This document shows, piece after piece, positions 39,831 to 60,540 of a DNA stretch of 64,000 nucleotides (position 1 is its first letter; every line of letters starts with the position of its first letter). A program made the translations under genes and the position numbers. The notes below the pieces were generated by a model, which did no database searches, was not told the DNA's origin, and was given only the letters and a program-made list of their open reading frames with translations. Origin of the DNA: Barnesiella sp. WM24 (GTDB taxonomy: Bacteria > Bacteroidota > Bacteroidia > Bacteroidales > Muribaculaceae). The stretch covers positions 124,001 to 188,000 of the forward strand of contig NZ_SPPC01000006.1 in assembly GCF_004570975.1 (NCBI RefSeq), written 5' to 3'.

Positions 39831-40052
39831 ATGTATTGGACACTTGAACTCGCATCAAAACTCGAAGACGCTCCCTGGCCCGCAACCAAAGAGGAGCTTA
39901 TCGACTACGCCATGCGCTCCGGCGCCCCCCTCGAGGTAATCGAAAACCTCCAGGAAATGGAAGACGAAGGCGAAACCTACGAATGTATAGAAGACATCTG
40001 GCCCGACTACCCCTCCAAAGAAGACTTCTTCTTCAACGAGGAGGAATACTAA
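39831..40052 (+). CDS. DUF2795 protein, target gene of the integrated element
   Basis: This 73-aa acidic protein (LELASKLEDAPWPATKEELI, DFFFNEEEY) matches the DUF2795 family, which is conserved in Bacteroidetes; function unknown. Its last 8 codons and stop (from 40029) are repeated at 57203-57227 at the far end of the element. The integrated element therefore enters at or near this 3' end and leaves the gene intact. The stop is followed by a terminator at 40087-40127. Confidence 0.88.
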   Translation: MYWTLELASKLEDAPWPATKEELIDYAMRSGAPLEVIENLQEMEDEGETYECIEDIWPDYPSKEDFFFNEEEY

Positions 40053-40086
40053 GCCCACACAAAAGGATTAACCCAAAGAATACCAA

Positions 40087-40127
40087 AGAGTTGAGCTTCG
40101 CACCAAGCGACAGCCCAACTCTTTTTT
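40087..40127 (+). terminator. Terminator of the DUF2795 gene (left copy)
   Basis: AGAGTTG (40087-40093) pairs with CAACTCT (40116-40122), with an inner GCTT/AAGC stem and a T run to 40127. An equivalent hairpin is at 57261-57302. Confidence 0.85.
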
Positions 40128-40143
40128 CTTGCATTTTACCCCC

Positions 40144-40171
40144 TTTTACAGCATAATAAACTAACGTAAAA
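40144..40171. repeat. TTTTAC-N16-GTAAAA inverted site, left
   Basis: Six-bp inverted arms are 16 bp apart. Two more copies of the same size lie at 57122-57149 and 57318-57345. The size and symmetry resemble a tyrosine-recombinase core site (two binding arms around a spacer). Confidence 0.6.
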
Positions 40172-40267
40172 TTAGCGCACCGACAAAAAAGGAATATAAA
40201 CAATCGGGATAAACTGTCGTATAACTGTTGTAAATTCGCTTAAAATAAAAGAAACGGAACATACAAC

Positions 40268-41602
40268 ATGGGTAAAGCAGCAAGACCATTCCCGACCGGA
40301 CATTTCCGGTTGTACAAGACCAGACAAACCAAGAATGACCGCCCTCTGGTGATCCAGATTGAATATGCTGTCAAATCAGTGGCAGTCAGACGCTCTACCG
40401 GAATCTCTGTCAAAGAAAAGGACTGGAATCCTAACGAGAACAAGGGACGTGGCGGTGTCAGGGCAAGCTACGGACCTGACTATCGCAATATCAACAGTAG
40501 GCTTACAAAAAGCGTCAGTGAGCTTGACTCCAAAATAGCGGCTTGGTGTGAGAAGCACCCCGACCGTTTGACAGTGGAGATCATGAGGGCTCTTCTTGAC
40601 GACCACCCGACAACACGTGAAGACAAAGGTATTGATTTTGTGAGTTATGTGTCAGACCTCCTTAAAAACGAGCTGGACCGAAATAAAATCGGTCAGAGTG
40701 TATATCGCAATGGCTTGAGTGCCATGAAAATATTCCGGGAGTTCCTTAAATCGGAAAAACGCGGTACGTATGCACCTGACAGCATTTATATCTCTGAGAT
40801 TTCCACGGAGCTCATAGAGTCACACATAAAGTGGAGACGCGAGATCAAGGACAACAGTGACGATACTATAAACCATGCCCTGACCCCTATACTCAAAGGC
40901 TGTCAACAGGCAATGGTAATGGGATACATTCCGGTGGCTCTCAATGCCGCCATACAGAAGATGAGAATCATAAAGACCGTATCACTCCAGAAGAATGATG
41001 AGTCAAGCGTGAAGCATCTTTCCAAAAAGGAACTGGAGTGTCTTATAAAGTTTTACATTGAAGATAAGGAAGCGAGACGGAAGGAATATATCGAGATGTT
41101 CCTGTTTGCCCTATATGCCTGTGGTTTGCGTGTCATTGACATCATCACCCTGCAATGGTCTGACATAGACTTCGACAAACGGACTCTTAACAAGATACAG
41201 GTCAAGACGAAAAACAGGAATGTTATACCCCTAAGCGACCAGGCTATGGGAATACTTGAACAGTGGAAAGGTCGATACAATCGTTTTGTTTTCGGATTGC
41301 TTGACGATGACTTTAACCTTGATGACACAGATGCTCTGTACCGTGTGAGGAACACAAAGACACGTGGTATCAATCAAGCTCTCAATGTGATTGGTGAAAA
41401 ACTGGGACTGTCATTCAGTCTCACATTTCATGTCGGACGCCACACCTTTGCTGTCCTGAGCCTTAATAACGGTATGGACATGACGATGGTGAGCCAGCTT
41501 CTCGGTCATTCCTCTACTGAAATAACCGAGAAAGTCTACGCTCACTTTATGCCGGCAAGACTGCGTGAAGAGCTGAGCAAGATTAAGTTGCCATCCCTTT
41601 AG
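40268..41602 (+). CDS. Tyrosine-type site-specific integrase
   Basis: This 444-aa recombinase carries an N-terminal arm-type binding region and a SAM-like core-binding domain (about 125-235). The catalytic domain has Arg288 (CGLRVID), His388 and Arg391 (FHVGRH), His414 (LLGHSS) and Tyr424 (KVYAHF). It should integrate and excise the element at the DUF2795 gene. The gene ends in TAG, 20 nt into the convergent tail of the interrupted primase-like gene. Confidence 0.95.
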   Translation: MGKAARPFPTGHFRLYKTRQTKNDRPLVIQIEYAVKSVAVRRSTGISVKEKDWNPNENKGRGGVRASYGPDYRNINSRLTKSVSELDSKIAAWCEKHPDRLTVEIMRALLDDHPTTREDKGIDFVSYVSDLLKNELDRNKIGQSVYRNGLSAMKIFREFLKSEKRGTYAPDSIYISEISTELIESHIKWRREIKDNSDDTINHALTPILKGCQQAMVMGYIPVALNAAIQKMRIIKTVSLQKNDESSVKHLSKKELECLIKFYIEDKEARRKEYIEMFLFALYACGLRVIDIITLQWSDIDFDKRTLNKIQVKTKNRNVIPLSDQAMGILEQWKGRYNRFVFGLLDDDFNLDDTDALYRVRNTKTRGINQALNVIGEKLGLSFSLTFHVGRHTFAVLSLNNGMDMTMVSQLLGHSSTEITEKVYAHFMPARLREELSKIKLPSL

Positions 41603-43195: not shown

Positions 43196-43239
43196 ATAAA
43201 AACGTGTCAGAATAATCTTGTAAAGGTTATCCTGACACG
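43196..43239. terminator. Terminator-like hairpin after the DprA operon
   Basis: CGTGTCAG (43203-43210) and CTGACACG (43232-43239) form a stem extended by ATAA/TTAT. On the minus strand it is followed by a T run (43202-43196), ending the operon that starts at 47647. The plus side also has a T run. Confidence 0.75.
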
Positions 43240-43315
43240 CTCTTTTTCGCAGCGGTTCAATCTTTTAGGTTATTCTGATACAGTTAAAGGCATAACAGTC
43301 AAAACATATATGACA

Positions 43316-43352
43316 AATCTCTCAGCCCGGATGTGTCTCAGGCTGAGAGATT
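43316..43352. repeat. Perfect 12-bp inverted repeat between the DprA-like gene and terminator
   Basis: AATCTCTCAGCC (43316-43327) and GGCTGAGAGATT (43341-43352) flank a 13-nt loop. It can act as an extra transcription-end or mRNA-stabilising hairpin. With the hairpin above, it fills most of the 318-nt gap 43095-43412. Confidence 0.7.
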
Positions 43353-43412: not shown

Positions 43413-44204
43413 TCATATAGGTTTTGCAAGATTCTGTTCAATAAGGTCATAGTTTCCGGCATTTGCCTCGGTGTGGCGCGGGAAGGTGGCCGCGAGGCTC
43501 TCCCGGCCATACTTGCGGGCAAAGCGCATGGTGTGGAGCGAGCCGCTTTGAGCCGGACACTGGGCCAGTATCACAGCCTCTGAGAGTGCAGCCTGGAGGC
43601 GGTTGCGGGCCACCAGACGCGTGGGATTGGCCTTGACGCCTATTGGTTGTTCCGACAGCATCAGACCGCCGTTGCGCAATATTGAATCCTCCAAAACCTT
43701 GTTCTCACGCGGATGTGTGATGTCGAGTCCGTTTCCCACGATAGCTATCGTGCTACCCTTGACATCAAGACAGCCACGGTGGGCGGTAGCATCGCATCCG
43801 AGAGCGAGACCGCTCACCACGACATACCCTTTCCGGGCATAGTCCGCACCGAGCTGATAAGCTTTCGTGTTCCCCTCCTTGTCGGCTGAGCGTGCTCCTA
43901 TTACAGCCACAGCTTTTTCGGCTTCCAGCAGCTTCAGGTTGCCTTTGCAATGTATCACTGCCGGACAGTCGGCACCGATGGCAAGCAGGCGCGCCGGAAA
44001 CCGTGAATCCTGACAGGATATGCTGACGATACCCAGTTTTTCCTGTCGGTCAAGTATTGAATTGGCCTTGTCAAGATACCCGTCAAACTCCGGATTCTCT
44101 TCATATAGACGGTCAAACTCTGCAAGGTCGGTCTTTATTATTTGTGAGGTGGGCATGCCCGACATCTGCAATGCCATCACCTCGTCGATATTCAGTTTTT
44201 CCAT
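43413..44204 (-). CDS. DprA/Smf-like Rossmann-fold protein
   Basis: This 263-aa protein matches the DprA/Smf core: AVIGARSADKEGN, YVVVSGLALGCDATAHRG, TIAIVGNGLD with HPREN, LSEQPIGVKANP and ARNRLQAALSEAVILAQ. DprA binds single-stranded DNA and loads RecA in transformation. Here it is short, has no C-terminal winged helix, and lies last in an element operon with an alpha/beta hydrolase and two FFG-domain genes. That context suggests a conflict or regulatory role, not competence (inference). It starts 6 nt after the upstream gene. Confidence 0.85.
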   Translation of the reverse strand: MEKLNIDEVMALQMSGMPTSQIIKTDLAEFDRLYEENPEFDGYLDKANSILDRQEKLGIVSISCQDSRFPARLLAIGADCPAVIHCKGNLKLLEAEKAVAVIGARSADKEGNTKAYQLGADYARKGYVVVSGLALGCDATAHRGCLDVKGSTIAIVGNGLDITHPRENKVLEDSILRNGGLMLSEQPIGVKANPTRLVARNRLQAALSEAVILAQCPAQSGSLHTMRFARKYGRESLAATFPRHTEANAGNYDLIEQNLAKPI

Positions 44205-44210
44205 ATGATT

Positions 44211-44873
44211 TTACTTTATAAAACTTTTTAATACACCCGCGATCTCTTCTGGGACAGACCTGCAAGGCTTCATCATAGAGAGGGCATCGGCATGGTCATG
44301 ACAACACTCTCCGGGTCCGTCCAACACATAATAGCAGTCATCTCTGGCATCGGCAAGGTAGCCCATACCGTCCTTAGACCTTTCGTAGCGTTCCCAAAAC
44401 CGATCGACGGTCGGTCCGTCGTCAGCGACAACCGCAAGGCGCACGCTATCACGCCCTACCACCTCCACGATGTCTCCTTTCCTGAACAGTATGCGCGTCC
44501 GGTGCCGTCCGAAGAAACAAGAACTGATAGTGTCACCTCCTGTGGTCGTGCTTCTGAAATCAATAAGTACACCATTCGGGCCATAAGTCCATGAGGCACC
44601 GGTCTCCTCTCCGATGTCACGTCCGACAGGAAGCTGGGTGATGACAAACCGATATGTCGCCTCCCGGTTGACAAAACTCTCACGCATGAGCCTCTCAGCA
44701 TCCTCAAGCGTCAGAAAGAGGTATTCATTCGTGTAGATGTCAAATTCGGGATAAACCACTCCATTGCTCAGGAAGGTGTGCTCCAGACGGTATATCCACA
44801 CCCCTTCAAGCGAGGGACTGCGGTCGGCAAGATCAAGAAACTGACTGTAAGTAAGGTTATCCGGAAGTGTCAT
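44211..44873 (-). CDS. Unrecognised 'FFG/RKGDIV' domain protein
   Basis: I do not recognise this 220-aa cytoplasmic protein. It has the pattern ASWTYGPNGVLIDF, CFFGRHRTRILFRKGDIVEV and DDCYYVLDG. The same order, YVESWMYDFRGSL, NFFGHLPDSLPYRKGDIVIV and ENDRYLVQTG, occurs in the next gene upstream within the hydrolase fusion. Both therefore carry one shared, apparently undescribed domain of about 150 residues. It lies 10 nt after the fusion gene and 6 nt before the DprA-like gene. Confidence 0.75.
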   Translation of the reverse strand: MTLPDNLTYSQFLDLADRSPSLEGVWIYRLEHTFLSNGVVYPEFDIYTNEYLFLTLEDAERLMRESFVNREATYRFVITQLPVGRDIGEETGASWTYGPNGVLIDFRSTTTGGDTISSCFFGRHRTRILFRKGDIVEVVGRDSVRLAVVADDGPTVDRFWERYERSKDGMGYLADARDDCYYVLDGPGECCHDHADALSMMKPCRSVPEEIAGVLKSFIK

Positions 44874-44883
44874 ACATCTATAA

Positions 44884-46785
44884 TTATACCGAGTTTTCCT
44901 GAGTGTACATGTTGATTATATCAATGATCTGAAGATTTGTATCACTGACATTGAAAGTGTTGTTATACTCCAGAAATGCGTTCCATTCTTCTTTGTCACA
45001 CTCGTCAGGGGCGTAACCGTTATCACGCCACCATGTCAGGTAAGCTCCAAGCATCACCTTTTTGTCTCCTGTATGATGGTAGGCTATCGGTAACGGAGTG
45101 GAACGCTGGGCCGGATCGGCAAGAATCTCGTCGATATGTTCAAACAGATGTCTCTTGGCGATGTGGAAACGTATACCGAAACATGCCTGTGTCCGTCGCC
45201 CCATGCCATACACCCGATTACGATGTTCATTTTCCAGAGTCCTCGCTATGCGTTCATGAAGATGCTCGTCTTTATTTTTAAGTTCGCAATATTGAGAGTG
45301 CCATTGCATCATCAGATCAACCATAGCATAGCCTACCGGAAACTTCACCGGGAAAATTTCCATCGGATGACGATAGGACAGAGTGTTCATGCTTTCATTA
45401 TAAAAGCCTGTCTGAACCAGATAGCGGTCATTCTCATAACCCGGATAATTCTCTTCGTCAAGCCAGTCACTCACAGGTAGTCCGTCACGCTCGCGACGCT
45501 TTACCACCCTACGGTAATATTCGTAACCTTTTTTGACCGTGTGTGGCTCTTCGGCGATCACACCCATCATGGCGTATGTACGGTTACTATTCGGAGACGG
45601 TTCAAACACAATTACAATGTCACCCTTCCTATAAGGGAGACTGTCAGGTAAATGACCGAAGAAATTTCCATATATCCCCGGCTGTCTGTTATGGACAGGT
45701 GAACAGGTTGACTTCTGAATCAGGGAGCCGCGGAAGTCATACATCCACGATTCCACATACCGATGAGTCTGCGACATTATACCGAAGGGATAATGTCTTA
45801 TCTCGAAATCAAGAATACCTTTACTTCCGACCAGACCGTTCATTGCCTCCGCAGCCTCATGAAATGTAGCATAATCCGCGCTGTCAGGGTTGAATACCTT
45901 TACATTGCGGTCACTCGGCATCATGCGTACTGCAACATCACCGTTGCGTCTTACCAGACGGAATGACATCGGGTCACAGGCTGCCTCTTCCGCGGTTTGC
46001 CGGTTGACATACACACGCTTCAAATCCATTTGGTCAGGTTCATACGAACGCACTGTCAGACGGTAGAATCCGGGAACTTCGGGTTGCGGACGGGTGCGTA
46101 CCATCTCTTCAAAATCACTGAATGACATCGGTGAGCCACCCATTCTCCGACGGCGGTCGATGACGAGTTCAAGAAGGTCGTAGAGGTGTGTCATGCTGGC
46201 ATCCTTGCACTGGTGTCCGAAATCGTCCACCACCTTGAAATAGCTGTCCCACACCAGACCTGTCAGGGCTTTTACATGAGAGTCGCCAAGCAGGTCATCG
46301 GTTGTCGAACACAGGGCGGAGACACGCGGAGAGTTGTCACGCACTGACTGCACGGCGTCATAACGCTCATATTTGTCGAGAGTAGCCTGTGTCAGAGTAT
46401 AGGTCTGAACGCCGTCGAGACGCTTGCAGAAGTATGTGTGCTCCTCACCGACCCATTGGGCCAACTGTGACTTCGGGAAAAGACAGGGGTTGACGATGAC
46501 CACATCGGCATCGCCCGACTCACATTCAAGAGCCATAAATCCGCCCAGCGAAGTGCCTATGATTATTTCCGGGTGTTCCTCGCGTATGGCGCGGTTGATT
46601 ACCTCCAGAGAGCTGTCGGGGTCAGCGTCCAGCTCAGGGGCAATCACCCGGTAGCGACCCTTGAACTGACGTTGCAACTGTCGCTGCTTGGCTCCGTTGG
46701 CTCCCGACATAAACCCGTGGAGATACATCATCACGGGGAGTGTATCGCTTATGTTTTCTACAATATCATTCATCTTCATAGTCAT
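44884..46785 (-). CDS. YqiA/UPF0227-like alpha/beta hydrolase fused to the FFG/RKGDIV domain
   Basis: The first 210 residues are an alpha/beta hydrolase of the YqiA/YcfP (UPF0227) esterase type: PVMMYLHGFMSGANG, the nucleophile elbow GTSLGGF (Ser near residue 79) and a C-terminal DDFGHQ His. The next 230 residues carry the FFG/RKGDIV domain shared with the downstream gene. The last 190 residues are unassigned and helical (YCELKNKDEHLHERIARTLE and onward). The ATG at 46785 is preferred to the TTG at 46800; it overlaps the upstream stop by 20 nt. The substrate is unknown. Confidence 0.78.
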   Translation of the reverse strand: MTMKMNDIVENISDTLPVMMYLHGFMSGANGAKQRQLQRQFKGRYRVIAPELDADPDSSLEVINRAIREEHPEIIIGTSLGGFMALECESGDADVVIVNPCLFPKSQLAQWVGEEHTYFCKRLDGVQTYTLTQATLDKYERYDAVQSVRDNSPRVSALCSTTDDLLGDSHVKALTGLVWDSYFKVVDDFGHQCKDASMTHLYDLLELVIDRRRRMGGSPMSFSDFEEMVRTRPQPEVPGFYRLTVRSYEPDQMDLKRVYVNRQTAEEAACDPMSFRLVRRNGDVAVRMMPSDRNVKVFNPDSADYATFHEAAEAMNGLVGSKGILDFEIRHYPFGIMSQTHRYVESWMYDFRGSLIQKSTCSPVHNRQPGIYGNFFGHLPDSLPYRKGDIVIVFEPSPNSNRTYAMMGVIAEEPHTVKKGYEYYRRVVKRRERDGLPVSDWLDEENYPGYENDRYLVQTGFYNESMNTLSYRHPMEIFPVKFPVGYAMVDLMMQWHSQYCELKNKDEHLHERIARTLENEHRNRVYGMGRRTQACFGIRFHIAKRHLFEHIDEILADPAQRSTPLPIAYHHTGDKKVMLGAYLTWWRDNGYAPDECDKEEWNAFLEYNNTFNVSDTNLQIIDIINMYTQENSV

Positions 46786-47647
46786 TTTGTTTGTTGTCAA
46801 GTCCGAGCCTGATTATTACCTCCTCAATCGAACAGGCTCCTTCGGCATCCATTTGTGAGTATTTCATGATACTCTCATTGAGAGATTCGTTCCAGTTATA
46901 CTCTCCATGCGTAAGATCCCCCCAAAGTACTCTACCCCATTGCAACTCAGGCAACTCCCGACCTATTACCCACCTCCCGTCAGGAGTCAGGATGTCGGCT
47001 TTCCGAGTTCCGTAGTTGTGGACGTAGAGTAAAAGGTTGCCCTTGGGATCACGAGCCAGATCGGGGTGTCGCGACCACCATTCAATAAGGCCTCCCAACC
47101 TTGGCAGACTGCGCGTCGAAGAGCAGAACATATAGTCACCGATTGCAGCCATATACAATGAGCGGTGGGCAAGTATCTCCCCGGAGTGTTCCAACAGTCA
47201 GTAGGCATGTTTACGAAACGAAGGATAATAGCACGACGTTGAAGCCAGCAGCAGGAGGCGTACATTCTCCGTTTGCGTCTCGCAGACATCCATTCCGCAA
47301 CACACATCAAGCACCTGTGGCAGACGAGAGAAACGAGTAGACAAAGAGTCAAGTTGCCCGGCTGTCACTCCGCTGTCCGGTCGACAGACTAGACGGAATA
47401 CCACACGCCTGTAGCCCCACAGCTTATAATTCACTACCAGCTCTCTTAACTGTCTGACAACATCGTCAATGGAATCTCCGGAGTAGATTCTGGAAAGGAA
47501 ACCCAAAGGCTCTTCCGCCAATAGCTTTACATCCTGCTCATAGTCCAGGGCAATCAGTCGGTGTCCTGACGGAATCTCTCCGCATAACGCCTGCTTTACC
47601 TCTTCCGGGGTGCTCATTCCTTCAGCTATAAAACTCGTTGTTTTCAT
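46766..47647 (-). pseudogene. FtsZ-C-domain-like protein interrupted by an in-frame TGA
   Basis: Two open stretches in the same frame, 149 aa from the ATG at 47647 and 142 aa to 46766, are separated only by TGA at 47198-47200. The second has no ATG until 16 codons in. Together they form a protein of about 293 residues. RRVVFRLVCRPDSGVTAGQL and DVCCGMDVCETQTENVRLLLL follow the order of the FtsZ/tubulin C-terminal sandwich (VLVNIT..D, VIG.S.D....VRVTVIA). I rate that likeness as suggestive only. The gene is first in the operon with the hydrolase, FFG and DprA-like genes and is preceded by a shared operator-promoter-leader. Confidence 0.6.
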
Positions 47648-47820
47648 TTTGTGTCGTCAGTATTATATTGTTTTGAGAGATTGTTGAGTATATTATAATA
47701 TAATATGAGACTGAGCGAATCAGTCACACACATGCAAAGATAGCCAATAAGCGGATACAGTGGTAGTTAAATCGTTTCTTGACACTGCAAGACCGATGTT
47801 TTTAACTCAATTTCTTGACA
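47648..47820 (-). promoter_or_regulatory. Cassette 1: leader, promoter and operator repeats
   Basis: Read on the minus strand: two direct repeats (47802-47820 and 47767-47784; core TGTCAAGAAA, 35 bp apart), then -7 TATCTTTG (47735-47742), then an AT-rich leader. The leader's GTGTCGTCAGTATTATATTG segment (47651-47670) abuts the start. A near-identical copy is at 49328-49498. Confidence 0.75.
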
Positions 47821-47831
47821 ATTATCAAGAA

Positions 47832-48770
47832 TCAGTCATCATCTTCCTCTTTTAAGAGATATGATTTGTCAATCGGTGTCTTGTTGAGCAGAAAGGCGTC
47901 AGAATTAAGTTTCCAAACTGAAATCTCACCCTCACTCTTTGACAGTTGTATCAACATGTCTTTATAATGGCTGGCAAATCTAAGCACATTTGAAAGATCT
48001 CTCGGCTCTATATGGTGCATGAACCTTAACAGTTTATCGTCAGGAAATCCGACAGAGCCGCCATCGTAAATTACTACTGCAAAATATCTTAACGGGTCGT
48101 GGTATTCGTCAGGTATGAAAAGTGCCAGCGGATGGTCGGTCTCTCGACATGTATTGACATATATGTCGAATGGCAGATGTGTCACAGTCTTGTCAAGCCG
48201 TTCCATATTCCATGCAAAACGAATATCCTTGGCAGGGAAATAAGTAAACCCTTCTATATTGAACTCATCGCTATCGATGGTATAATTCAGCATTAAATCA
48301 TCCTCGACACGTCCGTGAAACCCTATTTTATAGATTTCATCGCCAAGCAATTTATCGATTATGCCTACGAGTATGGCATCGGAAATCTCGCGGTCAACTT
48401 CAGCCACCATGCCATCCTCGTTACCATCGCTATAATAATGCGGAAATCTATTATAATATAACGGGTCTATATTATAGGTCGATTGACTATAGCTGACCAT
48501 ACTGTATTCAAGCATAAGCTTATCGTCGTCAAGACGCAGTTCTTTGGCTGCATAGAAGGCACCCTTGAAATGCCCCCAGAGATCACCGAGCTCAAAGAAT
48601 TCGTTTCGCTCTGCTTCCCGAAGGTATAGAGTGCTTTTTCCCTTCTCCTTCATACGGGATATGATTGCCGGGACACATTCAGTCCATACAAACTCCCTGC
48701 GTTCCTCTTCAATAGTCGATATTTGTCCGGCCATATCCGCAAGCCGGGTCTTCATTTCCTTGTTCGTCAT
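47832..48770 (-). CDS. Unrecognised 312-aa acidic protein
   Basis: I do not recognise this protein. It has no signal peptide or membrane segment, an N-terminal helical region (LADMAGQISTIEEERREFVW) and an acidic tail (LLKEEDDD). It is cotranscribed with the DUF285 gene, 20 nt downstream, from the cassette 2 promoter. Its stop lies 11 nt from the cassette 1 operator. Confidence 0.7.
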   Translation of the reverse strand: MTNKEMKTRLADMAGQISTIEEERREFVWTECVPAIISRMKEKGKSTLYLREAERNEFFELGDLWGHFKGAFYAAKELRLDDDKLMLEYSMVSYSQSTYNIDPLYYNRFPHYYSDGNEDGMVAEVDREISDAILVGIIDKLLGDEIYKIGFHGRVEDDLMLNYTIDSDEFNIEGFTYFPAKDIRFAWNMERLDKTVTHLPFDIYVNTCRETDHPLALFIPDEYHDPLRYFAVVIYDGGSVGFPDDKLLRFMHHIEPRDLSNVLRFASHYKDMLIQLSKSEGEISVWKLNSDAFLLNKTPIDKSYLLKEEDDD

Positions 48771-48790: not shown

Positions 48791-49327
48791 TTAGAGTATT
48801 ATCTCCACTCCTTCCGGTAACTCGGCCTTGATTTTCTCTACGGTCTCGTCCGAACAGTTTTTCATGATTACGGTCTTGAGGCTACGGCAACCGTAGAACA
48901 TTTTGCCCACGTCAGCATTGGACGCGTCAAACGAACTGATATTCAGTGTAACCAGCTCGCTGCAATCCGCAAACATTCCAAACATCGATTCCACCTTTGA
49001 TGTGTCGAAATTGCTCAAATCAAGCGAAGTCAGCCCGTTACAACGCAGAAACATCTCACTCATATCCTCGACATTCGAGGTATCAAACGCGCTTAAATCA
49101 AGAGCCGTCAGCGCATGACAGTCAATGAACATTCCGCGCATGCTTTCCGCCTTTGAGGTGTCTAACCTGCTTAAATCAATCGAGGTCAGTTTCTCACAGA
49201 ATCCAAACATATAGCTCATTCTAATCACCTCTGAAGTATCGAGAGAGCTAATGTCAAGCGTCTCCATATCGCAAAGATTCGCATGTGAACACATATAGCC
49301 CATGTCGGTTTTATCGGGAATTTCCAT
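48791..49327 (-). CDS. Cytoplasmic DUF285 (BspA/mycoplasma-type LRR) repeat protein
   Basis: This 178-aa protein has five repeats of the type L-x-x-L-D-L-S-x-F-D-T-S-x-V-x-x-M-x-x-M-F-x-x-C, ending in ELPEGVEIIL. DUF285 repeats are usually on secreted proteins, but no signal peptide is present here (MEIPDKTDMGYMC). It ends in the same motif (SLKTVIM.NCS) as the longer DUF285 protein at 49590, so the two are paralogues. Target unknown. Confidence 0.85.
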   Translation of the reverse strand: MEIPDKTDMGYMCSHANLCDMETLDISSLDTSEVIRMSYMFGFCEKLTSIDLSRLDTSKAESMRGMFIDCHALTALDLSAFDTSNVEDMSEMFLRCNGLTSLDLSNFDTSKVESMFGMFADCSELVTLNISSFDASNADVGKMFYGCRSLKTVIMKNCSDETVEKIKAELPEGVEIIL

Positions 49328-49498
49328 TTTGTGTCGTCAGTATTATATTGTTTTGAGAGATTGTTGAGTATTATAATATGATAGCAGACTGAGTGAATCA
49401 GTTACACATATGCAAAGATAGCCAATAAGCGGATACAGTGATAGTTAAATCATTTCTTGACACTATATGACTGCTGTTTTTAACTCAATTTCTTGACA
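49328..49498 (-). promoter_or_regulatory. Cassette 2: leader, promoter and operator repeats
   Basis: Direct repeats at 49480-49498 and 49445-49462 are 35 bp apart. The -7 TATCTTTG is at 49413-49420 and the leader GTGTCGTCAGTATTATATTG at 49331-49350. This copy nearly matches cassette 1 over about 170 bp. Confidence 0.75.
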
Positions 49499-49527
49499 AA
49501 TCAACCTACGACTTTCAGGAGCAGAGT

Positions 49528-49589: not shown

Positions 49590-50687
49590 TCATTGAATGA
49601 TTTCCACACCTTCCGGTAACTTAGACTTGATTTTCTTGATAGTCGCTGCTGAACAGTTTCTCATAATCACGGTCTTGAGACTATCGCAGCCGACGAACAT
49701 GGCCTCCATATCCGTTACTTTCGATGTATCAAACGAGCTGAGGTCAAGTGTAGTCAGCTCTGTACAGTCGCTAAACATTTCTCTCATGTTCGTTACATTC
49801 GACGTGTCAAACGAACTGAGATTAAGTGTACTCAGAGCCGAACACCCCTCAAACATTCCAGACATATTAACTACTTTTGATGTATCAAAAGAGCTGAGGT
49901 CAAGTGTGGTCAGATCCGAACAATAACCAAACATAAGCGACATATTAACTACTTTTGATGTATCAAAAGAGCTGAGGTCAAGTGTGGTTTCTCCTCTCAA
50001 AAGAAACATCGATTGCATACTCGTCATTTCAGATGTCTCCTCGGGAATATCATCATCATCCACTTCTTCTATCTCCCAATCAGACATATCACCCCATGGG
50101 AATAGCGTATGAGAACTTGATCCACCACGAGGTATTTCCTCAATCTCATATATGAGGATGAATGTATCGTCATTTTTCTCTTTCAGAGCAGAGCGCAGGG
50201 CTTCAACGTCTTCCTCAGAGGAAATTTTTGTCCCTGTCAGTTCTTCAATACGCTTATAGACATCTTCGATGGTTCTGAAACTACCCGCTTCATCATCCTC
50301 GTCTTCTGAATAGCGCATATCAAGATAATACTTGTCGGGAAACCAGCCTTTTTCCGGGTTCTCTCTCTTCTGAGCAAGTTCATATGCCCATAATTCACCT
50401 TTAAAGTAGGGGCAAAGTGTCTCGAAGTTGTCACATACTTCATCCCATTCTTCAATGTAGGTTCTCCCGGCTCCTTCAAACACGAAAGATATACAATCTT
50501 CCTCACGTTTAAGCTCCGACCATTGACCTCTTCCATCTTCAGCCTCCTCGCGGTTAATCTCGGTCATTAGGTCACATAGCCATGGTCCACCTTCGGCATT
50601 CTCAACCTTCTGCATGATTCCGAACAAGCGGTCAAGCTCTTCCGGTTCGCCGGCTATGCGATATTCACAATAACTCCAGTCTGCCAT
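49590..50687 (-). CDS. Api92/DUF1281-like domain fused to DUF285 repeats
   Basis: Residues 1-130 (MADWSYCEYRIAGEPEELDR, FETLCPYFKGELWAYE) resemble the ferredoxin-fold Api92/DUF1281 domain found in phage and plasmid proteins. An acidic linker follows, then five DUF285 repeats from about 235, ending in LPEGVEIIQ. No signal peptide, so it is cytoplasmic. Two repeats are identical over 50 bp at DNA level (49861-49910 and 49939-49988, 78 bp apart), a recent duplication. It is the last gene of the operon starting at 52404. Confidence 0.78.
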   Translation of the reverse strand: MADWSYCEYRIAGEPEELDRLFGIMQKVENAEGGPWLCDLMTEINREEAEDGRGQWSELKREEDCISFVFEGAGRTYIEEWDEVCDNFETLCPYFKGELWAYELAQKRENPEKGWFPDKYYLDMRYSEDEDDEAGSFRTIEDVYKRIEELTGTKISSEEDVEALRSALKEKNDDTFILIYEIEEIPRGGSSSHTLFPWGDMSDWEIEEVDDDDIPEETSEMTSMQSMFLLRGETTLDLSSFDTSKVVNMSLMFGYCSDLTTLDLSSFDTSKVVNMSGMFEGCSALSTLNLSSFDTSNVTNMREMFSDCTELTTLDLSSFDTSKVTDMEAMFVGCDSLKTVIMRNCSAATIKKIKSKLPEGVEIIQ

Positions 50688-50753: not shown

Positions 50754-51020
50754 TCACGTCAGCAGCTTTGTGATGGCGAGCTTCACGGTGGCGATGAAGT
50801 CGGGGAAACGGTCGTCGGAGAAGATTTTCCACGGACGGAAGGCACAGAGCCACAATGCTGCGACCACACACAGCGCAATCTTAATCCACAGCGTATGCAT
50901 CACCGTCGCTGCCATCGCAATAGCCAACAGGGGTATCAGCCATTGCGATAGCAAAAACGATATGGTCACCAACAGGTTAAGTAGCAGACGTAGTTTTACC
51001 ATATACGCATTATCAGTCAT
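50754..51020 (-). CDS. Small two-helix membrane protein
   Basis: From the ATG at 51020 the product is 88 aa with hydrophobic segments LLLNLLVTISFLL.. and LLAIAMAATVMHTL, plus IALCVVAALWLCAF. The C-terminal amphipathic part (FSDDRFPDFIATVKLA) is soluble. The start overlaps the previous stop by 8 nt. Family unknown. Confidence 0.65.
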   Translation of the reverse strand: MTDNAYMVKLRLLLNLLVTISFLLSQWLIPLLAIAMAATVMHTLWIKIALCVVAALWLCAFRPWKIFSDDRFPDFIATVKLAITKLLT

Positions 51021-51477
51021 CGATGGGCAATGATAGCTCACAAATCATCGGAAAAAAATCGTCATCGTCATCAAGTTCGATGTCATAATCTAGCTTCCGA
51101 GAGCTATTAATCGTCTCAGCCATATACTTGTCGTTGGCTATCATGCGTCTGTAGGCGGTGTCATATACCACATACTTTACAGATGTCAGTCCGTCGATGG
51201 CCTTGATTCCATCATACACCTGAGGGATATAGTTGTTGGTACGCAGTTCGATGGTAAAACATCCCAAGCTATGATACTGGCGCACCCACTCAATACTATC
51301 TTCCGACAATGAATCTTTTATCCACTCTTTGGTCACCAAAGCACAAGCCGAGGCGATAGCCTCCTCTGAGCCTTTAAGCCCAATGATGGTTATGACCGGA
51401 TTGTCAACCTTGATAAAGGGACATCCGTCCATATCCACATTGTGATGATAAAACTTTGAATAGTTTTGGTCTGTCAT
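51013..51477 (-). CDS. Unrecognised 154-aa protein
   Basis: I do not recognise this soluble protein. It has a mixed alpha/beta pattern with ITIIGLKGSEEAIASACAL near the N-terminus and an acidic run (ELDDDDDFF) near the end. It lies between the 304-aa gene (12 nt upstream) and the small membrane protein (overlapping by 8 nt), so it is in the operon. Confidence 0.65.
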   Translation of the reverse strand: MTDQNYSKFYHHNVDMDGCPFIKVDNPVITIIGLKGSEEAIASACALVTKEWIKDSLSEDSIEWVRQYHSLGCFTIELRTNNYIPQVYDGIKAIDGLTSVKYVVYDTAYRRMIANDKYMAETINSSRKLDYDIELDDDDDFFPMICELSLPIDD

Positions 51478-51489
51478 GATTACCGACGG

Positions 51490-52404
51490 TTACTTTGCAG
51501 CGGGCAGTCCGTGATATTCATGGAGAGCCTCATATACATTTTGAGTGACACAGTTTAGTCGATAAATCGCATGCAGCTTGAACTGGTCCACACGGGAGAG
51601 GTCGACAGCCATTGCCTTTACGCAATTCGGTAGGATAATTGACGTCTTCCATACATCTTCGGGAAGTGCTTCAAGCGTATCAGACAGCTTGTTCCAGTCA
51701 ATGTCTCCGTCAGTAAAGAGCGAGTGGAACATAGGCTCCACCAATGAAGCTATTTCCTCTGACTTACCCTTATGACCATTGGCGCGAACTGCAGACTCAA
51801 GCATATGCTTTATCCCAGAGATAAGGCTATGGCTCGCAGCTTCCCACTTTGAAGGTTGATTCTGGGTCATACTGAAAGATCCCTCCTGTGGGTACAAAGA
51901 GATGAATTCATCCGGGGCTTGCTTCAGGAAGTCAAGATAGAACCGGTCTATCTTGCGTCGGCCTGTAGCCGGGTTGATTTCCTCACTTGCGTTGAGCCAT
52001 TCCTCTCGGTCAAAGTCATAGAAGTTGATGTCGCAGTCAACATCATTACCCCATTCACGAATCAGTGAATCCTCGATGTAGATAAACCACGGAGCTTTTG
52101 ATGCAATGGGAAGAGAAAGCACTTCTTTGAGTTCTTCTCCACGCCCGCGTCCGATAGGTATTATAAAGAAATGCTCTGTGTCGCATTTCATGATCTCAGG
52201 CAGTTGGGCATATGATGGAGCGACCCATGAATAGGGTCGAAGTTCGTCCTTGCCTCCGGGGATACGCTTATTTTCACCTACGAGTTGGTTTAACCTTGGA
52301 TAGTACATCTCTGAAGCGATTATGTGAGGCCTGGAATAGTCTCCGGCTTCAACATATTGCTTGATTGCCTTTATTGAGTCGGCAAAGTTCTTGGAATGAA
52401 GCAT
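51490..52404 (-). CDS. Unrecognised 304-aa protein
   Basis: I do not recognise this soluble protein. The N-terminal half has IKAIKQYVEAGD, PYSWVAPSYAQLPE and IPIGRGRGEELKE. The C-terminal half is helical, with a Trp/Leu-rich repeat-like region (DWNKLSDTLEALPEDVW). It has its own -7 element TACATTTG (52422-52429, minus strand), leaving a leader of about 10 nt, and begins the four-gene operon down to 49590. Confidence 0.68.
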   Translation of the reverse strand: MLHSKNFADSIKAIKQYVEAGDYSRPHIIASEMYYPRLNQLVGENKRIPGGKDELRPYSWVAPSYAQLPEIMKCDTEHFFIIPIGRGRGEELKEVLSLPIASKAPWFIYIEDSLIREWGNDVDCDINFYDFDREEWLNASEEINPATGRRKIDRFYLDFLKQAPDEFISLYPQEGSFSMTQNQPSKWEAASHSLISGIKHMLESAVRANGHKGKSEEIASLVEPMFHSLFTDGDIDWNKLSDTLEALPEDVWKTSIILPNCVKAMAVDLSRVDQFKLHAIYRLNCVTQNVYEALHEYHGLPAAK

Positions 52405-52498: not shown

Positions 52499-53635
52499 TC
52501 AGTGTTTTTTAAGGTTGTCGGTTGATGACATTGCGGTCAGACGGGTGGCAGCGGCGATATAGTCGAGTTCTACCCGGACAAGTGAAAGCAGCGGGGCTAT
52601 GAAGTCCCAGTCCACATTGTCGCAATACCATCCGCTGACGAGTGTAAGCGTTCCGGGACGGAAGGAATCGAGCTCTATTTTATGCTCATTCCTTCTTTTG
52701 TCTTTGACAGTTACAGTCTGTCCATTCACAGATGCTTTGATATTGTCGGTAATCTGACGCATGACAGTAAGCACCGGTTCGAGACGTATGAGAAGATCCT
52801 CCATGCGTTCGGTATGGTCGAGATGGATTTGCTTCAATGACTTTGCTTTCATAGGCTGCAAGCCGTTCTCACCTTCTGACAACAAAGGTATAGTACGTGA
52901 ATGCTCCTTGTCGACAATCCACACACTGCCCGTAGACCGCATAATCCGAAGACCTTCGAGTTCAGAAAGCCTATAGTCGCCCTTGGTTGTATGGAATACT
53001 ACTCGTCCGACTATGCTCTTTACCCAACTGTCATACCATCTCTTGAGATACAAAGGACTCCCGTCAGATGCAAGAATACCCTTGCGGACAAACATATCGA
53101 GATGGTAACGGTCTGCTGTTGAGAAAAGACTCCCAAGAATACGTATGGGGAAGAAAACATTCTTACCCGCGCTCATGCGGTCTTGTGTCTTGATACGAAG
53201 AGAGAATATGCCCGCCAGTGTATCATGGTCAAAAAACTCGAAGTCGGAATCAAGAGCGCTGTCGTCGAGCAGCTCTGTCTCACTATGATCTATGGCAGCA
53301 ACAGTGTCATCCTGAAGTGCGACAACATATTCAATGAATTTTTTCAGGTGGCTCACATTATCTTGAAGCCGCTTTTTCTCCGTCGGGTCTGTAGTGTTTC
53401 TACTCTTCTCTCCTATGGTGCCGACCAATGCTGTGAGGAAGTTCTCCGCACACCCTTTTGCCACAGCGTCGACAAGCCCGTCAAACAGGTCTTTATTGAC
53501 TATCGGAAGGAAGAATTCCCTGTTGACACGCCTTATGCCTGAGCAATAGCTGTCGGCGCTGCGTTTGGAATGTCCCTTGTTTAACCACCACTGACGGAAA
53601 CCTTCAAGGAACTTATCGGTATTAGTCTCGGTCAT
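52499..53635 (-). CDS. Recombinase-like protein with only a SAM-type DNA-binding domain
   Basis: Residues about 8-105 (FLEGFRQWWLNKGHSKRSADSY, then HLKKFIEYVV) resemble the SAM-like core-binding domain of tyrosine recombinases. The remaining 270 residues show no Arg/HxxR/Tyr catalytic motif. Instead there are GKNVFFPIRILGSLFSTADR and SIVGRVVFHTTKGDYRL. It may be a DNA-binding regulator or target selector. It is transcribed from the cassette 3 promoter through a leader of about 260 nt. Confidence 0.7.
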   Translation of the reverse strand: MTETNTDKFLEGFRQWWLNKGHSKRSADSYCSGIRRVNREFFLPIVNKDLFDGLVDAVAKGCAENFLTALVGTIGEKSRNTTDPTEKKRLQDNVSHLKKFIEYVVALQDDTVAAIDHSETELLDDSALDSDFEFFDHDTLAGIFSLRIKTQDRMSAGKNVFFPIRILGSLFSTADRYHLDMFVRKGILASDGSPLYLKRWYDSWVKSIVGRVVFHTTKGDYRLSELEGLRIMRSTGSVWIVDKEHSRTIPLLSEGENGLQPMKAKSLKQIHLDHTERMEDLLIRLEPVLTVMRQITDNIKASVNGQTVTVKDKRRNEHKIELDSFRPGTLTLVSGWYCDNVDWDFIAPLLSLVRVELDYIAAATRLTAMSSTDNLKKH

Positions 53636-53903: not shown

Positions 53904-54008
53904 CAAAGTTAAACATTATTTTGCGATTGACCAAGCTGTTTTGAGAATCAGAGTGTTAAATCCGTTCTTGACTCCAAAAATTAGTGATTTTAACATTATC
54001 TCTTGACA
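53904..54008 (-). promoter_or_regulatory. Cassette 3: promoter and operator repeats
   Basis: The -7 TAACTTTG (53904-53911) has upstream direct repeats at 53956-53973 and 53990-54008. They share the CTTGAC core of cassettes 1 and 2 and are 34 bp apart. Confidence 0.65.
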
Positions 54009-54046: not shown

Positions 54047-54093
54047 GTGTCATCAGTATTATATTGTTTTTGAGTGAAAGAGGATATAATTAA
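54047..54093 (-). repeat. Orphan leader copy
   Basis: GTGTCATCAGTATTATATTG starts at 54047 and differs by one base from the leader segment just upstream of the starts at 47647 and 49327. No gene follows it on the minus strand; the cassette 3 operator comes next. It looks like the remains of a cassette whose gene was deleted. The plus-strand remainder (54094-54190) is AT-rich and holds no clear feature. Confidence 0.6.
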
Positions 54094-54190
54094 TATAATA
54101 AGGAGAAAAAAATTACAGTAACAGCCATCTTCGTATAAACTTTTTCATCAAGTTGATCTACCATTGATAGAAACTTCATAATTCAACAAA

Positions 54191-55252: not shown

Positions 55253-55915
55253 ATGACCAATCAATTAAACAATTCCACAAATTTTTCCTATAACCAAACG
55301 GAAGAGCTCAGCAATAAAGCTGATTCAAAATCAACGTCCATTATGAACACAACAACAAAAACAGAAAATATCATGACTCAAGAAAAAACAAGCATTCTTA
55401 ATGCAATGAGCGAAATGCAGGATGCCACAGGCAATCAATGGGCCTACATCTTAGAGGACTCCGGCAAGCTCTATTACGAATCCGTCTCTTATACCATTGA
55501 GTATAACGAAGACTATGAGGAGGAAGACTGCGATGATGAAGATCCTGACGAAGACTACGAGGAATCATCTCCCATGACAGTATGTTGCTTCAACTCTACA
55601 CCCAAAGAAATGGCCACCTATCTCCCCACGGATGTAGATGTCATTGATGAGAAGCAGATGGCAGCTTATATGTGGGCCAACCATGAGGTTCTGTGCAAAA
55701 CATACGAATATGAGTGCTGGACAATGGAGGATGAATGCGGAATACTTGATGCCATAGCAATGCAACTATATTACATCCGACAACTTTCTCCAAAGTACTA
55801 CAAGGACAACATGGGATTCTCCGAACCATATAAAAGCCTACGCGATTACACTTATGCAAGAAAACGAGCACATGAAATCTATCAAAATTTACAAGAAGAG
55901 GCCCGTACATATTGA
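55253..55915 (+). CDS. Unrecognised acidic 220-aa protein
   Basis: The protein has a Ser/Asn/Thr-rich N-terminus, a very acidic stretch at about 80-105 (DYEEEDCDDEDPDEDYEE) and a helical C-terminus. Several Met codons (55253, 55343, 55373) are possible starts. An acidic DNA-mimic role is conceivable but speculative. It lies 83 nt after the previous gene. Confidence 0.6.
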   Translation: MTNQLNNSTNFSYNQTEELSNKADSKSTSIMNTTTKTENIMTQEKTSILNAMSEMQDATGNQWAYILEDSGKLYYESVSYTIEYNEDYEEEDCDDEDPDEDYEESSPMTVCCFNSTPKEMATYLPTDVDVIDEKQMAAYMWANHEVLCKTYEYECWTMEDECGILDAIAMQLYYIRQLSPKYYKDNMGFSEPYKSLRDYTYARKRAHEIYQNLQEEARTY

Positions 55916-55940: not shown

Positions 55941-56573
55941 CTATAGTAGTAGCAAGGACCGGCACTTCCGAAGAGTGTTGACAGAGGTGCCGGTCAGCTT
56001 ACTTACATTTCGCAGACTGATACCCTTTCGCAAAAGTCGTAGCTCTTCGGTATATTCCACTTGCATTATGTCGGCGGTTTTGTGGTAGCCGGGTTTTCGG
56101 CCCACACGACCGCCGGCATTTATGTAATTGACATACCCGCTCTCCATGCGTTCCCTGATTGTACGTCGCTCCATTCTCGCCACTTCGGCAAGTATCGTGA
56201 CCATAAACTGACTCATAGCGTTTATTTTGCCCTCAGAAGTCAGAGTCTCGATATTATAGTTGTCAATATAAAGCGACACTCCGGATTCATTCAATCGCTC
56301 GATTACTTCAAGCACCTGTACGGTATCGCGTCCCAGACGGCTTAACTCAGTTACCATTACTTTTTCTATATGGTTGACCGAGATATAATCAAGCATAGCA
56401 ACCAGTTCGCCCCTGTTTTTGTTTGAGGTAGCTCCGCTGATCTGTTCACAGAACACTTTCTCGACATTCCAGCCCCGTCGCCCGGCAATCTCATTGAGGT
56501 CGTTGACCTGACGCTGGTTGTCCTGTATGCGTGTTGACACACGTGTGAATATTACTACTTTACACATTGACAC
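55941..56573 (-). CDS. Serine recombinase (resolvase/invertase family)
   Basis: This 210-aa recombinase has the catalytic Ser13 in VIFTRVSTRIQDNQ, the RLGRDT motif and MERRTIRERM. A C-terminal HTH region (GISLRNVSKLTGTSVNTLRK) binds DNA. It may resolve element multimers or invert a segment. It ends in TAG, as only the integrase gene also does among the element's intact genes. Confidence 0.93.
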   Translation of the reverse strand: MSMCKVVIFTRVSTRIQDNQRQVNDLNEIAGRRGWNVEKVFCEQISGATSNKNRGELVAMLDYISVNHIEKVMVTELSRLGRDTVQVLEVIERLNESGVSLYIDNYNIETLTSEGKINAMSQFMVTILAEVARMERRTIRERMESGYVNYINAGGRVGRKPGYHKTADIMQVEYTEELRLLRKGISLRNVSKLTGTSVNTLRKCRSLLLL

Positions 56574-56666: not shown

Positions 56667-56975
56667 TTAGGCAAAAGCCTCATAACGGCTCCGGTTAAGA
56701 AATGTTATCACATCCGAGCCTAAGTACCAATACTTGTCACTTTCACGGATATATGACAACAGTCCGTTATCACGGTATTTTTTCACAAGACGTTCATCGA
56801 CACCAAGCAGCAACCGTATCTCCTTATTATTATAAAGAGCCTTGGGATTAAGCTGGATTTTAGTAGTTTCCAGTCCGCTCCTGAGGTCATTGAGCTCAGC
56901 TCTCAGGCTCTTTATTTCTTTTATAAGGGTGGTAATCAAGTTGTCGTTGATCGGTTCGGGGTTATTCGTTGACAT
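56667..56975 (-). CDS. Excisionase-like HTH_17 protein
   Basis: This 102-aa protein has an N-terminal coiled-coil (LIKEIKSLRAELNDLRSGLE) and a winged HTH_17-type domain (YNNKEIRLLLGVDERLVKKY, DKYWYLGSDVITFL). Such proteins control excision or replication of Bacteroides elements. Its upstream region shares an 18-bp repeat with the primase-like gene. Confidence 0.85.
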   Translation of the reverse strand: MSTNNPEPINDNLITTLIKEIKSLRAELNDLRSGLETTKIQLNPKALYNNKEIRLLLGVDERLVKKYRDNGLLSYIRESDKYWYLGSDVITFLNRSRYEAFA

Positions 56976-57149: not shown

Positions 57150-57260
57150 CTATCAACAAATCAGCAATCACCTGATAATCAATTATTAAAACAGTCAGTT
57201 CTTTCTTCAACGAGGAGGAATACTAAGCCTGCACAAAAGGATTAACACATAGAATACCAA

Positions 57261-57302
57261 AGAGTTGAGCTTCGCACCACGCGACAGCCCAACTCTTTTT
57301 TC
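57261..57302 (+). terminator. Terminator in the right repeat copy
   Basis: AGAGTTG (57261-57267) and CAACTCT (57290-57296) with a T run to 57302, matching the left copy. Confidence 0.8.
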
Positions 57303-57317
57303 TTGCATTTTACCACC

Positions 57318-57345
57318 TTTTACAGCCGAATACACCGGCGTAAAA
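57318..57345. repeat. TTTTAC-N16-GTAAAA inverted site, outer right
   Basis: It has the same arms and spacing as 40144 and 57122 and lies in the chromosomal side of the right repeat. Confidence 0.55.
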
Positions 57346-57479
57346 TTAGCGCATTTACAAGAATATAGACAATCGGGATAAAGGATGGGTCAATAAGGAT
57401 TTAACAATTTTCGGTTTGTTGTATTATACAAATGTTTTACTTTTGTATAACAAATAATATCAAGCGTTATAATGTCGTT

Positions 57480-59566: not shown

Positions 59567-59598
59567 TTTGTAGAATACTTAACGAATGAATATCTTTG
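59567..59598 (+). promoter_or_regulatory. Promoter of the restriction-modification operon
   Basis: TTTG (59567-59570), 20 bp and TATCTTTG (59591-59598) form a canonical promoter 25 nt before the ATG at 59623. Confidence 0.78.
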
Positions 59599-59622
59599 TA
59601 TCTGATAAACAAGAGTCGCGGA

Positions 59623-60540
59623 ATGGAAATTGACAGAAACATAAGATGCAGAAAACAAGATTTATTGTCGTACTTTAGAGGACGGTCTCAAGAAATTGTC
59701 GCGGAGTTAGAACTGGAATATTCAATTAACGACTATAAGAAGAAGACATCAGCCTTAAACCGGGCTATGATAGATAGTCGCGATAATCTGCTTGCAATTC
59801 TTGAAGAGAAAGCGAAATCTGAAAAGTGGGGCAATGAGGAGTTATTGGAATGTGCCCTCATGATATACTACACTAACGATGTGGTAATGCTCGAAGTGCG
59901 CAATTCTGTATGGGAATATGAATACATGTCTTTTTCCAGAAGAATAGGAGAATTGTGGGAGCCTTTCTGTAAGTTGTGTTTTAGATATCCGTTGACTGGT
60001 ATTTCATCATTTCTTCCTCCCTTGTTCTCGGAAGTGAAACGACAGCTTACGGATGAAATATCACTATATATCAGCAGGCTCGCAATTAAGGAGGAGGAGA
60101 AATCTCAATTGGCTAAATATTACGATAAGGTTTGGTGTCTTGTGACATCGGGAGAGATTAAGCTTGAATGTGACCTGCATTTTCTAAAAGATGGCATAAG
60201 GTATATAGTTGACTTTAAAAGCGGATTTGGCTCTAATGAAAAAGGCAATACAAATAGACTGCTTCTTGTCGGAAGCATATATGACAGCATAGAGACAGAG
60301 AAGTATAGATGCCTTATTTTTGTACGTTCTTCTGAGAATAATCATTATCTTGCCACATTGCAGTCCTCAGGAGTGTGGGATACCTATACCGGAGATGACA
60401 CTTATGGTAAGATTAAAGAATTTACCGGTTATGATATTCGCCGATGGATTGTCAACAATGTTGACTGGATGGGTGATTTCTCCGATTTGATGAAGGCGAC
60501 AATTAAGAGCCATGACTTGGAAAAATATTTGATATGGTAA
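59623..60540 (+). CDS. PD-(D/E)XK restriction endonuclease
   Basis: From the ATG at 59623 the product is 305 aa. The nuclease core has an acidic residue in IKLECDLHF (Asp184) and DFKSG in the next strand (Asp197, Lys199), a PD-(D/E)XK pattern. The ending overlaps the methyltransferase start by 7 nt, so the two form one transcription unit. It is predicted to cut unmethylated DNA at the methylase's site; the site itself cannot be read from sequence. Confidence 0.72.
   Translation: MEIDRNIRCRKQDLLSYFRGRSQEIVAELELEYSINDYKKKTSALNRAMIDSRDNLLAILEEKAKSEKWGNEELLECALMIYYTNDVVMLEVRNSVWEYEYMSFSRRIGELWEPFCKLCFRYPLTGISSFLPPLFSEVKRQLTDEISLYISRLAIKEEEKSQLAKYYDKVWCLVTSGEIKLECDLHFLKDGIRYIVDFKSGFGSNEKGNTNRLLLVGSIYDSIETEKYRCLIFVRSSENNHYLATLQSSGVWDTYTGDDTYGKIKEFTGYDIRRWIVNNVDWMGDFSDLMKATIKSHDLEKYLIW

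Follow-up and report, generated by a model that had tools for sequence, protein, structure and literature searches.

A short DprA-like protein, a hydrolase-FFG fusion and an FtsZ-C-like protein form a candidate conflict module on an integrative element of Barnesiella sp. WM24

Architecture of the operon

The operon analysed here lies on the minus strand of a 64,000-nucleotide stretch of Barnesiella sp. WM24 (Muribaculaceae; contig NZ_SPPC01000006.1, positions 124,001 to 188,000), which is hereafter called the window and provides all coordinates unless a comparison locus is named; genomes and loci used for comparison carry labels beginning with G and L. Running from 47647 to 43413, the operon consists of five tightly packed, same-strand open reading frames (ORFs): an FtsZ C-domain-like ORF of 149 aa (47198..47647), an ORF of 142 aa with a domain that we label WW (46766..47194), a YqiA/UPF0227-type alpha/beta hydrolase fused to an FFG and a WW domain (44884..46773), a stand-alone FFG protein of 220 aa (44211..44873) and a short DprA-like protein of 263 aa (43413..44204). 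The gaps of 10 nt between the fusion and the FFG gene and of 6 nt between the FFG and DprA genes agree with the single operon proposed in a sequence-only reading of this DNA. The fusion likely starts at the ATG at 46773, as judged by comparison with G020, its open frame beginning at a TTG at 46800. The strong terminator suggested in the same reading is also found: two hairpins 3' of the DprA gene (43197..43352, minus strand) reach -72.9 kcal/mol versus a shuffle mean of -42.2 (z -7.2; 0 of 200 shuffles as good), and the second carries a U-rich tail. A simple terminator scan left both hairpins unlisted, and an Rfam scan of the window from 36 to 64 kb gave no match.

An in-frame TGA at 47200-47198 cuts the first gene in two, and the 142-aa ORF takes up the frame of the 149-aa ORF beyond it. 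A frameshift is ruled out, since the two ORFs share one frame and are parted only by the TGA. The homologue of the pair in G020 is a single ORF of 309 aa. In G900 the same TGA separates ORFs of 149 and 142 aa, which are 97% and 91.5% identical to those of the window; the split is thus common to two copies, and a recent assembly error is an unlikely source of the stop codon.

Proteins of the operon

The hydrolase part of the fusion matches PF05728/UPF0227 (1.5e-12; 48.3 bits versus a cut-off of 21), in accordance with the YqiA-type assignment made earlier. It resembles the E. coli YqiA/UPF0227 esterases in this match and in the aligned Ser-Asp-His residues, but differs from them in its fusion to FFG and WW and in scoring far below the YqiA equivalog cut-off (NF008291, 38.3 versus 252 bits). 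The Ser of the GTSLGG motif, the Asp and the His are aligned across the close hydrolase clade (at least 51% identity), and the catalytic triad of the window protein is intact by alignment. Over residues 1-232, the fusion matches three phage records and one record of the plasmid set at 25.6-28.9% identity; among the viral contigs searched, neither the fusion nor c24, a protein encoded elsewhere on the element, found a match. Hydrolase-like proteins whose catalytic Ser and His are lost in the alignment are encoded close to DprA in L100 (7975-9303) and, as the degenerate relatives termed c11, in L116, L139 and L142. In L092 (4426-6000), a UPF0227 hydrolase is fused to BspA-type LRR repeats.

The FFG domain was located both in the 220-aa protein and in the fusion, where it covers residues 225-463 or 225-501, approximately, according to the profile; this confirms the fusion and the stand-alone copy recognized from sequence. 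Iterative profiles group 17 FFG domains. The domain matches no Pfam, NCBIfam or PADLOC family, housekeeping or other, the 220-aa protein remaining without a match in these libraries at E up to 1; the possibility that FFG is a known housekeeping family is therefore not borne out. A sub-threshold SH3-like similarity was seen for 3 of the 17 relatives, and assignment to a known fold was rejected, the best match to a solved structure (0.083) being not significant. No FFG protein turned up in the plasmid records searched; in L055, three FFG proteins are encoded close together. The fusion and the 142-aa ORF both contain the WW domain, likewise delineated by iterative profiles, which recurs in other loci.

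The short DprA-like protein, likewise recognized in the sequence-only reading, matches the Rossmann-like domain of PF02481 (DNA_processg_A; 7.3e-54; 182.6 bits versus a cut-off of 29.6), while it stays under the NCBIfam dprA equivalog cut-off (TIGR00732, 166.8 versus 191.15 bits). Its best match among solved structures is the DprA structure 3uqz (1.7e-26), in whose alignment R105 and R166 fall on the positions of R115 and K175 of pneumococcal DprA, so that both positions hold a basic residue. The strong match to PADLOC ShosA (4.1e-60) is not diagnostic, because the 365-aa DprA homologue of the same genome scores as well (2.9e-62), and filing the protein as ShosA was rejected on this ground. 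Relatives occur in 257 plasmid records, always at less than 60% identity, and in three viral loci at 36-42% identity. In L075 (5637-8597), two closely spaced DprA-like genes lie near an AAA gene and a gene that looks MoxR-like by eye; in L073 (1914-5460), a UPF0227-like hydrolase gene overlaps that of DprA, after which come an ART-like gene (sub-threshold) and, 1.5 kb on, a NADAR gene.

For the first protein, Pfam finds neither an FtsZ_C match nor a Tubulin/FtsZ GTPase domain. A two-sequence profile built from the window and G020 proteins nevertheless aligns with 14 FtsZ sequences in the register of the FtsZ C-domain with an hhalign score of 33.3, the best of 60 column shuffles scoring 21.4. 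The FtsZ-C-like character assigned earlier amounts to a weak similarity in register and pattern, with a stated probability of 34%. Stand-alone FtsZ-C proteins also occur near DprA or FFG in several other loci, and their profile matches FtsZ with a probability of 99%. In Pfam, two of them reach FtsZ_C at 0.004-0.008, short of the cut-off, and three more not at all; the window genome's own FtsZ finds one at 1.9e-5. FtsZ-like proteins of 338 aa whose GGGTGTG signature is lost in the alignment are encoded in L109 (4923-7590), following an FtsK-like ATPase and with DprA, FFG and DraG nearby, and in L111 (9279-10295).

The integrative element and its shared putative operators

The operon is cargo of an integrative element of ~17.2 kb, which spans about 40.03-57.38 kb of the window. 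The element is bounded by direct repeats of ~180 bp (161 nt at 90% and 22 nt at 95% identity): the left one (40029..40213) starts within the final codons of a DUF2795 gene and has blastn matches in other loci, and the right one (57203..57382) is its partner. The element encodes a tyrosine integrase (40268..41602, plus strand; PF00589 4.6e-26) and, on the minus strand, a serine resolvase (55941..56573; PF00239 1.8e-29) and an excisionase-like protein (56667..56975; phrog_7735 6.5e-5, HTH_17 0.0014, the latter below cut-off). Integrative elements of gut Bacteroidales likewise have a tyrosine integrase, an excisionase-like protein, a resolvase and direct repeats at the 3' end of a gene; the present element differs in that its repeats lie at a DUF2795 gene and in that transfer genes were not recognized. 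Pfam and PHROGs scans, which did not cover every gene, named no relaxase or transfer gene, and the word DUF2795 is absent from the 8 papers listed, of 318 found, in a literature search. In five other loci, too, DprA has a DUF2795 gene within 10 kb.

A near-identical element is present in G900, a genome of another genus, with identities of 98.9% for the integrase and for c24, 97% for a 304-aa protein, 96.9% for the fusion, 94.5% for FFG and 93.5% for DprA. Its divergent parts are a 220-aa protein at 55253 (56% identical) and the LRR region, where an IS66-family transposase gene stands between two parts of the homologue of the gene termed orf312. The outer limits of the DNA matches between the window and G900 are 39831 and 57272-57382. 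A divergent relative, L101, combines an integrase of 70.7% identity, a DUF2795 gene and a repeat match of 79% with FFG, DprA and FtsZ-C genes. Among viral contigs, the integrase has remote matches only (15 loci, 23-39%).

Two further gene groups of the element are transcribed from the minus strand. The LRR operon consists of a DUF285/BspA-type LRR protein of 178 aa (48791..49327; PF03382 1.5e-27) and, as its second gene, orf312 (47832..48770), which has relatives in L046, L054 and L180 and no Pfam match. The other group comprises c24 (378 aa; 52499..53635), with relatives in six further loci and in L180, L181 and L184, the 304-aa protein (51490..52404; 97% identity in L180, 58% in L184) and a 154-aa protein (51013..51477; relatives in L057, L180 and L181). 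By position alone, c24 is a candidate regulator; this identity is not backed by Pfam or PHROGs, neither of which matches it, and its N-terminus is recombinase-like to the eye only. A further protein, of 365 aa, has an N-terminal region of unknown type and a DUF285 LRR part (49590..50687, minus strand; PF03382 1.4e-34). Beyond the right repeat (59596-62093), a 314-aa gene lacking a Pfam match is followed by an Eco57I-type methylase gene, an arrangement resembling restriction-modification.

Three operons of the element are preceded by the same paired direct-repeat putative operator. The leader of the module operon (47640..47830, minus strand) contains two direct repeats 36 nt apart (putative operator 47766-47820), followed by TATCTTTG, which is presumably the Bacteroidales -7 box. 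A second leader copy, 90% identical, precedes the LRR operon (49321..49504, minus strand; putative operator 49444-49498). The third putative operator (53955..54008, minus strand) lies about 320 bp before c24; a leader-like stretch (54047-54100) is found on its far side, so that the order is unlike that of the other two leaders and only the operator is shared. The "four-gene system" originally perceived was therefore drawn too narrowly, and the WW domain, the shared leader and the element ends had all escaped the first reading.

Beyond these copies, neither the window's genome nor 13 others of the genus yielded a match to the leader. A matrix built from four leaders was used to scan 2.69 Mb of strand, excluding 15 loci that repeat known sites; beyond the four input leaders and shifted versions of them, it revealed two paired sites, both in L057 (identical with L125, same contig), which had taken no part in building the matrix. 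A strict operator pattern occurs at 12 sites in 7 of 377 family genomes, and its reversed control pattern in none. Element or module genes are present in the loci retrieved from six of these seven genomes, G174 being the exception.

Recurrence and gene company

Genomic co-occurrence, whose absence had been named beforehand as refuting the proposed system, was found: both G020 and G900 have the complete gene set, and the trio of hydrolase, FFG and DprA occurs in G188, G059, L100 and L124. Of 198 family genomes surveyed, the window's own among them, 11 have FFG, 11 the DprA clade (E at most 1e-70) and 10 a hydrolase of the close clade; FFG and the DprA clade coincide in five. Without the window's genome, FFG and DprA are each present in 10 and both in 4 of 197 (P = 6e-4, kinship ignored); FFG and hydrolase share three genomes, as do DprA and hydrolase (P = 0.007 each, again ignoring kinship). 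At the level of the order, 7 of 295 sampled genomes have FFG, the window's own among them; in a phylum sample, FFG matched 2 of 395 genomes, the window's own and one of the same order, and none outside Bacteroidales.

The company of the DprA clade was examined in 49 loci (47 from the genome collection, the window and L077). Within 6 kb of DprA, FFG is encoded in 11 of them, either a YqiA-like hydrolase or the degenerate c11 protein related to it in 15, a WYL regulator in 13, RtcB together with PrfH in 8 and DraG (ADP-ribosylglycohydrolase) in 5. Two AAA groups lie near the clade in 8 and 5 loci, and one AAA relative matches IetA (1.3e-28). In 10 loci, a UPF0227-like or c11 gene is at most 50 bp away from DprA, with and without RtcB-PrfH. 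WG-repeat and LRR genes accompany FFG in several loci. A recurring order with AAA, DprA, RtcB and PrfH is found in L115-L118, L138, L139 and L142 (the last cut at DprA). Most of these loci also have a YqiA-like gene or a degenerate c11 gene, and five of the seven a WYL regulator; the arrangement may extend PrfH-RtcB repair operons in a way not yet described.

Divergence and selection

Ratios of non-synonymous to synonymous substitution rates (dN/dS) of 0.06-0.39 were obtained in 13 of 14 comparisons of the window with G900 or G020. Against G900, 10 of 11 genes range from 0.08 to 0.39 (DprA 0.18, fusion 0.09); against G020, the values are 0.06 for DprA, 0.27 for FFG and 0.22 for the fusion. Identity to G020 is highly uneven: 93% for DprA, 91% for FFG, 83% for the hydrolase, 47% for the fused FFG, 38% for WW and about 40% for the first gene. 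As FtsZ is only 59% identical between the two genomes, the conservation of DprA points to horizontal transfer. The high divergence of the first gene, the fused FFG and WW may reflect recombination or fast adaptation of variable modules.

A possible function in genetic conflict

The gene set, its mobility, the shared operator sequence and a hydrolase triad that is intact by alignment are established, and from them we tentatively infer that the module serves as conflict cargo, most likely anti-phage or anti-element, of the ~17-kb integrative element; this is a plausible reading held at somewhat less than even confidence. It could operate in the following manner: a trigger would lift control at the operators, switching on the three gene groups (the module, c24-304-154 and LRR) together. 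The short DprA might bind single-stranded or foreign nucleic acid and gate its partners as sensor or antidote, a role proposed for DprA-like proteins that act alongside toxic partners. Slowing or arresting the cell would fall to the serine hydrolase and the free FtsZ-C-like domain, the latter possibly by capping or poisoning FtsZ polymers; a free FtsZ C-domain could poison FtsZ. FFG, WW and LRR parts would act as fast-diversifying adaptors or recognition modules. It is rather unlikely, although conceivable, that the element carries a new immune or host-arrest module in its fullest form, in which one regulator acts on the paired repeats of all three gene groups, the FtsZ-C part stops division and a DprA-gated hydrolase is addressed by FFG, WW and LRR at the invader or the host. 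The sequence-only reading had already considered a defence or element-control module; the association with an element and the DprA relatives near conflict and repair genes fit this idea, while a sensor role of DprA and an effector role of the hydrolase are still conjectural.

We know of no named system with this gene set, nor is it named in the titles or abstract openings of the literature searched. DprA-PRTase of P2-like phages, shosTA, syrTA/psyrTA and rqlHI are comparable in being short operons on mobile elements that combine a DprA-like protein with a candidate effector, but they have a phosphoribosyltransferase or RecQ-like partner, neither of which is among the operon proteins by Pfam, NCBIfam and PADLOC, and they lack the additional FFG, WW and FtsZ-C-like parts. 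PMC9122126 offers DprA-PRTase defence and DprA-like antitoxins as precedent, with DprA proposed to sense or restrain. The module would be at least a variant of DprA-associated conflict systems, with parts that are unnamed in the family libraries searched.

Several observations weigh against a conflict module of this kind. The Pfam, NCBIfam and PADLOC scans yielded no phosphoribosyltransferase for any gene of the operon. The FtsZ likeness of the window protein is weak in absolute terms (hhalign probability 34%), and the hydrolase relatives in L100 and of the c11 type lack the catalytic Ser and His by alignment. The DprA clade is missing from 6 of the 11 FFG genomes, and 38 of the 49 DprA loci have no FFG nearby (some being short contigs or from other phyla); the parts of the module are therefore loosely coupled. 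The 149-aa ORF shows a dN/dS of 0.63 versus G900, on only six changes, and the split first gene could be decaying.

The same material may be read without defence. The element might use the module for its own control: DprA would shield the element's single-stranded DNA while the element is excised or transferred, and host division would be delayed by the FtsZ-C-like protein until transfer or reintegration is complete. That the operon is cargo of a single integrative element under a shared putative operator, together with the integrase, resolvase and excisionase-like protein, is consistent with such a role; FFG, hydrolase and DprA are, however, found together without this integrase in L046, L050, L057 and L100 (limited stretches), the DprA clade also lies near WYL, RtcB and PrfH, and the scans described above named no relaxase or transfer gene, which leaves this explanation doubtful. 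The frequency of RtcB with PrfH (8 of 49 loci) and of a UPF0227-like or c11 gene within 50 bp of DprA (10 of 49) would fit a damage response, in which nucleic acids or ribosomes are repaired or recycled after attack and the hydrolase removes an ester-linked adduct. PrfH-RtcB operons have relatives of the same DprA clade nearby, often with a YqiA-like or c11 gene, and PMC6514570 treats PrfH-RtcB as a counter-conflict repair unit. Unlike these operons, the window shows no RtcB or PrfH profile match between 36000 and 57000, and we know of no repair role for the LRR, FFG or FtsZ-C-like parts, so that a damage response is unlikely here.

A polymorphic inter-bacterial toxin/immunity-type array, with FFG, WW, WG and LRR proteins as immunity or adaptor arrays and DprA as passenger, would account for the three closely spaced FFG proteins of L055 and for the company of WG-repeat and LRR genes that FFG keeps in several loci. 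It appears improbable, as no toxin delivery domain turned up in the scanned genes and DprA is the best conserved member (93% versus G020) and under purifying selection. Decay of accessory genes with no present function is suggested by the in-frame stop in the first gene of both copies and by the IS66-family transposase gene that splits the orf312 homologue region in G900, yet the low dN/dS in 13 of 14 comparisons and the presence of the putative operator in G020 and G059 make it very improbable indeed.

Irrespective of its precise function, the module joins orphan families (FFG, WW, c24 and stand-alone FtsZ-C) and a DprA clade in one recurring mobile unit of gut Bacteroidales. Its DprA goes with a hydrolase and a cell-division mimic instead of a phosphoribosyltransferase, and the putative operator, the element ends and the gene set are now concrete enough for testing.

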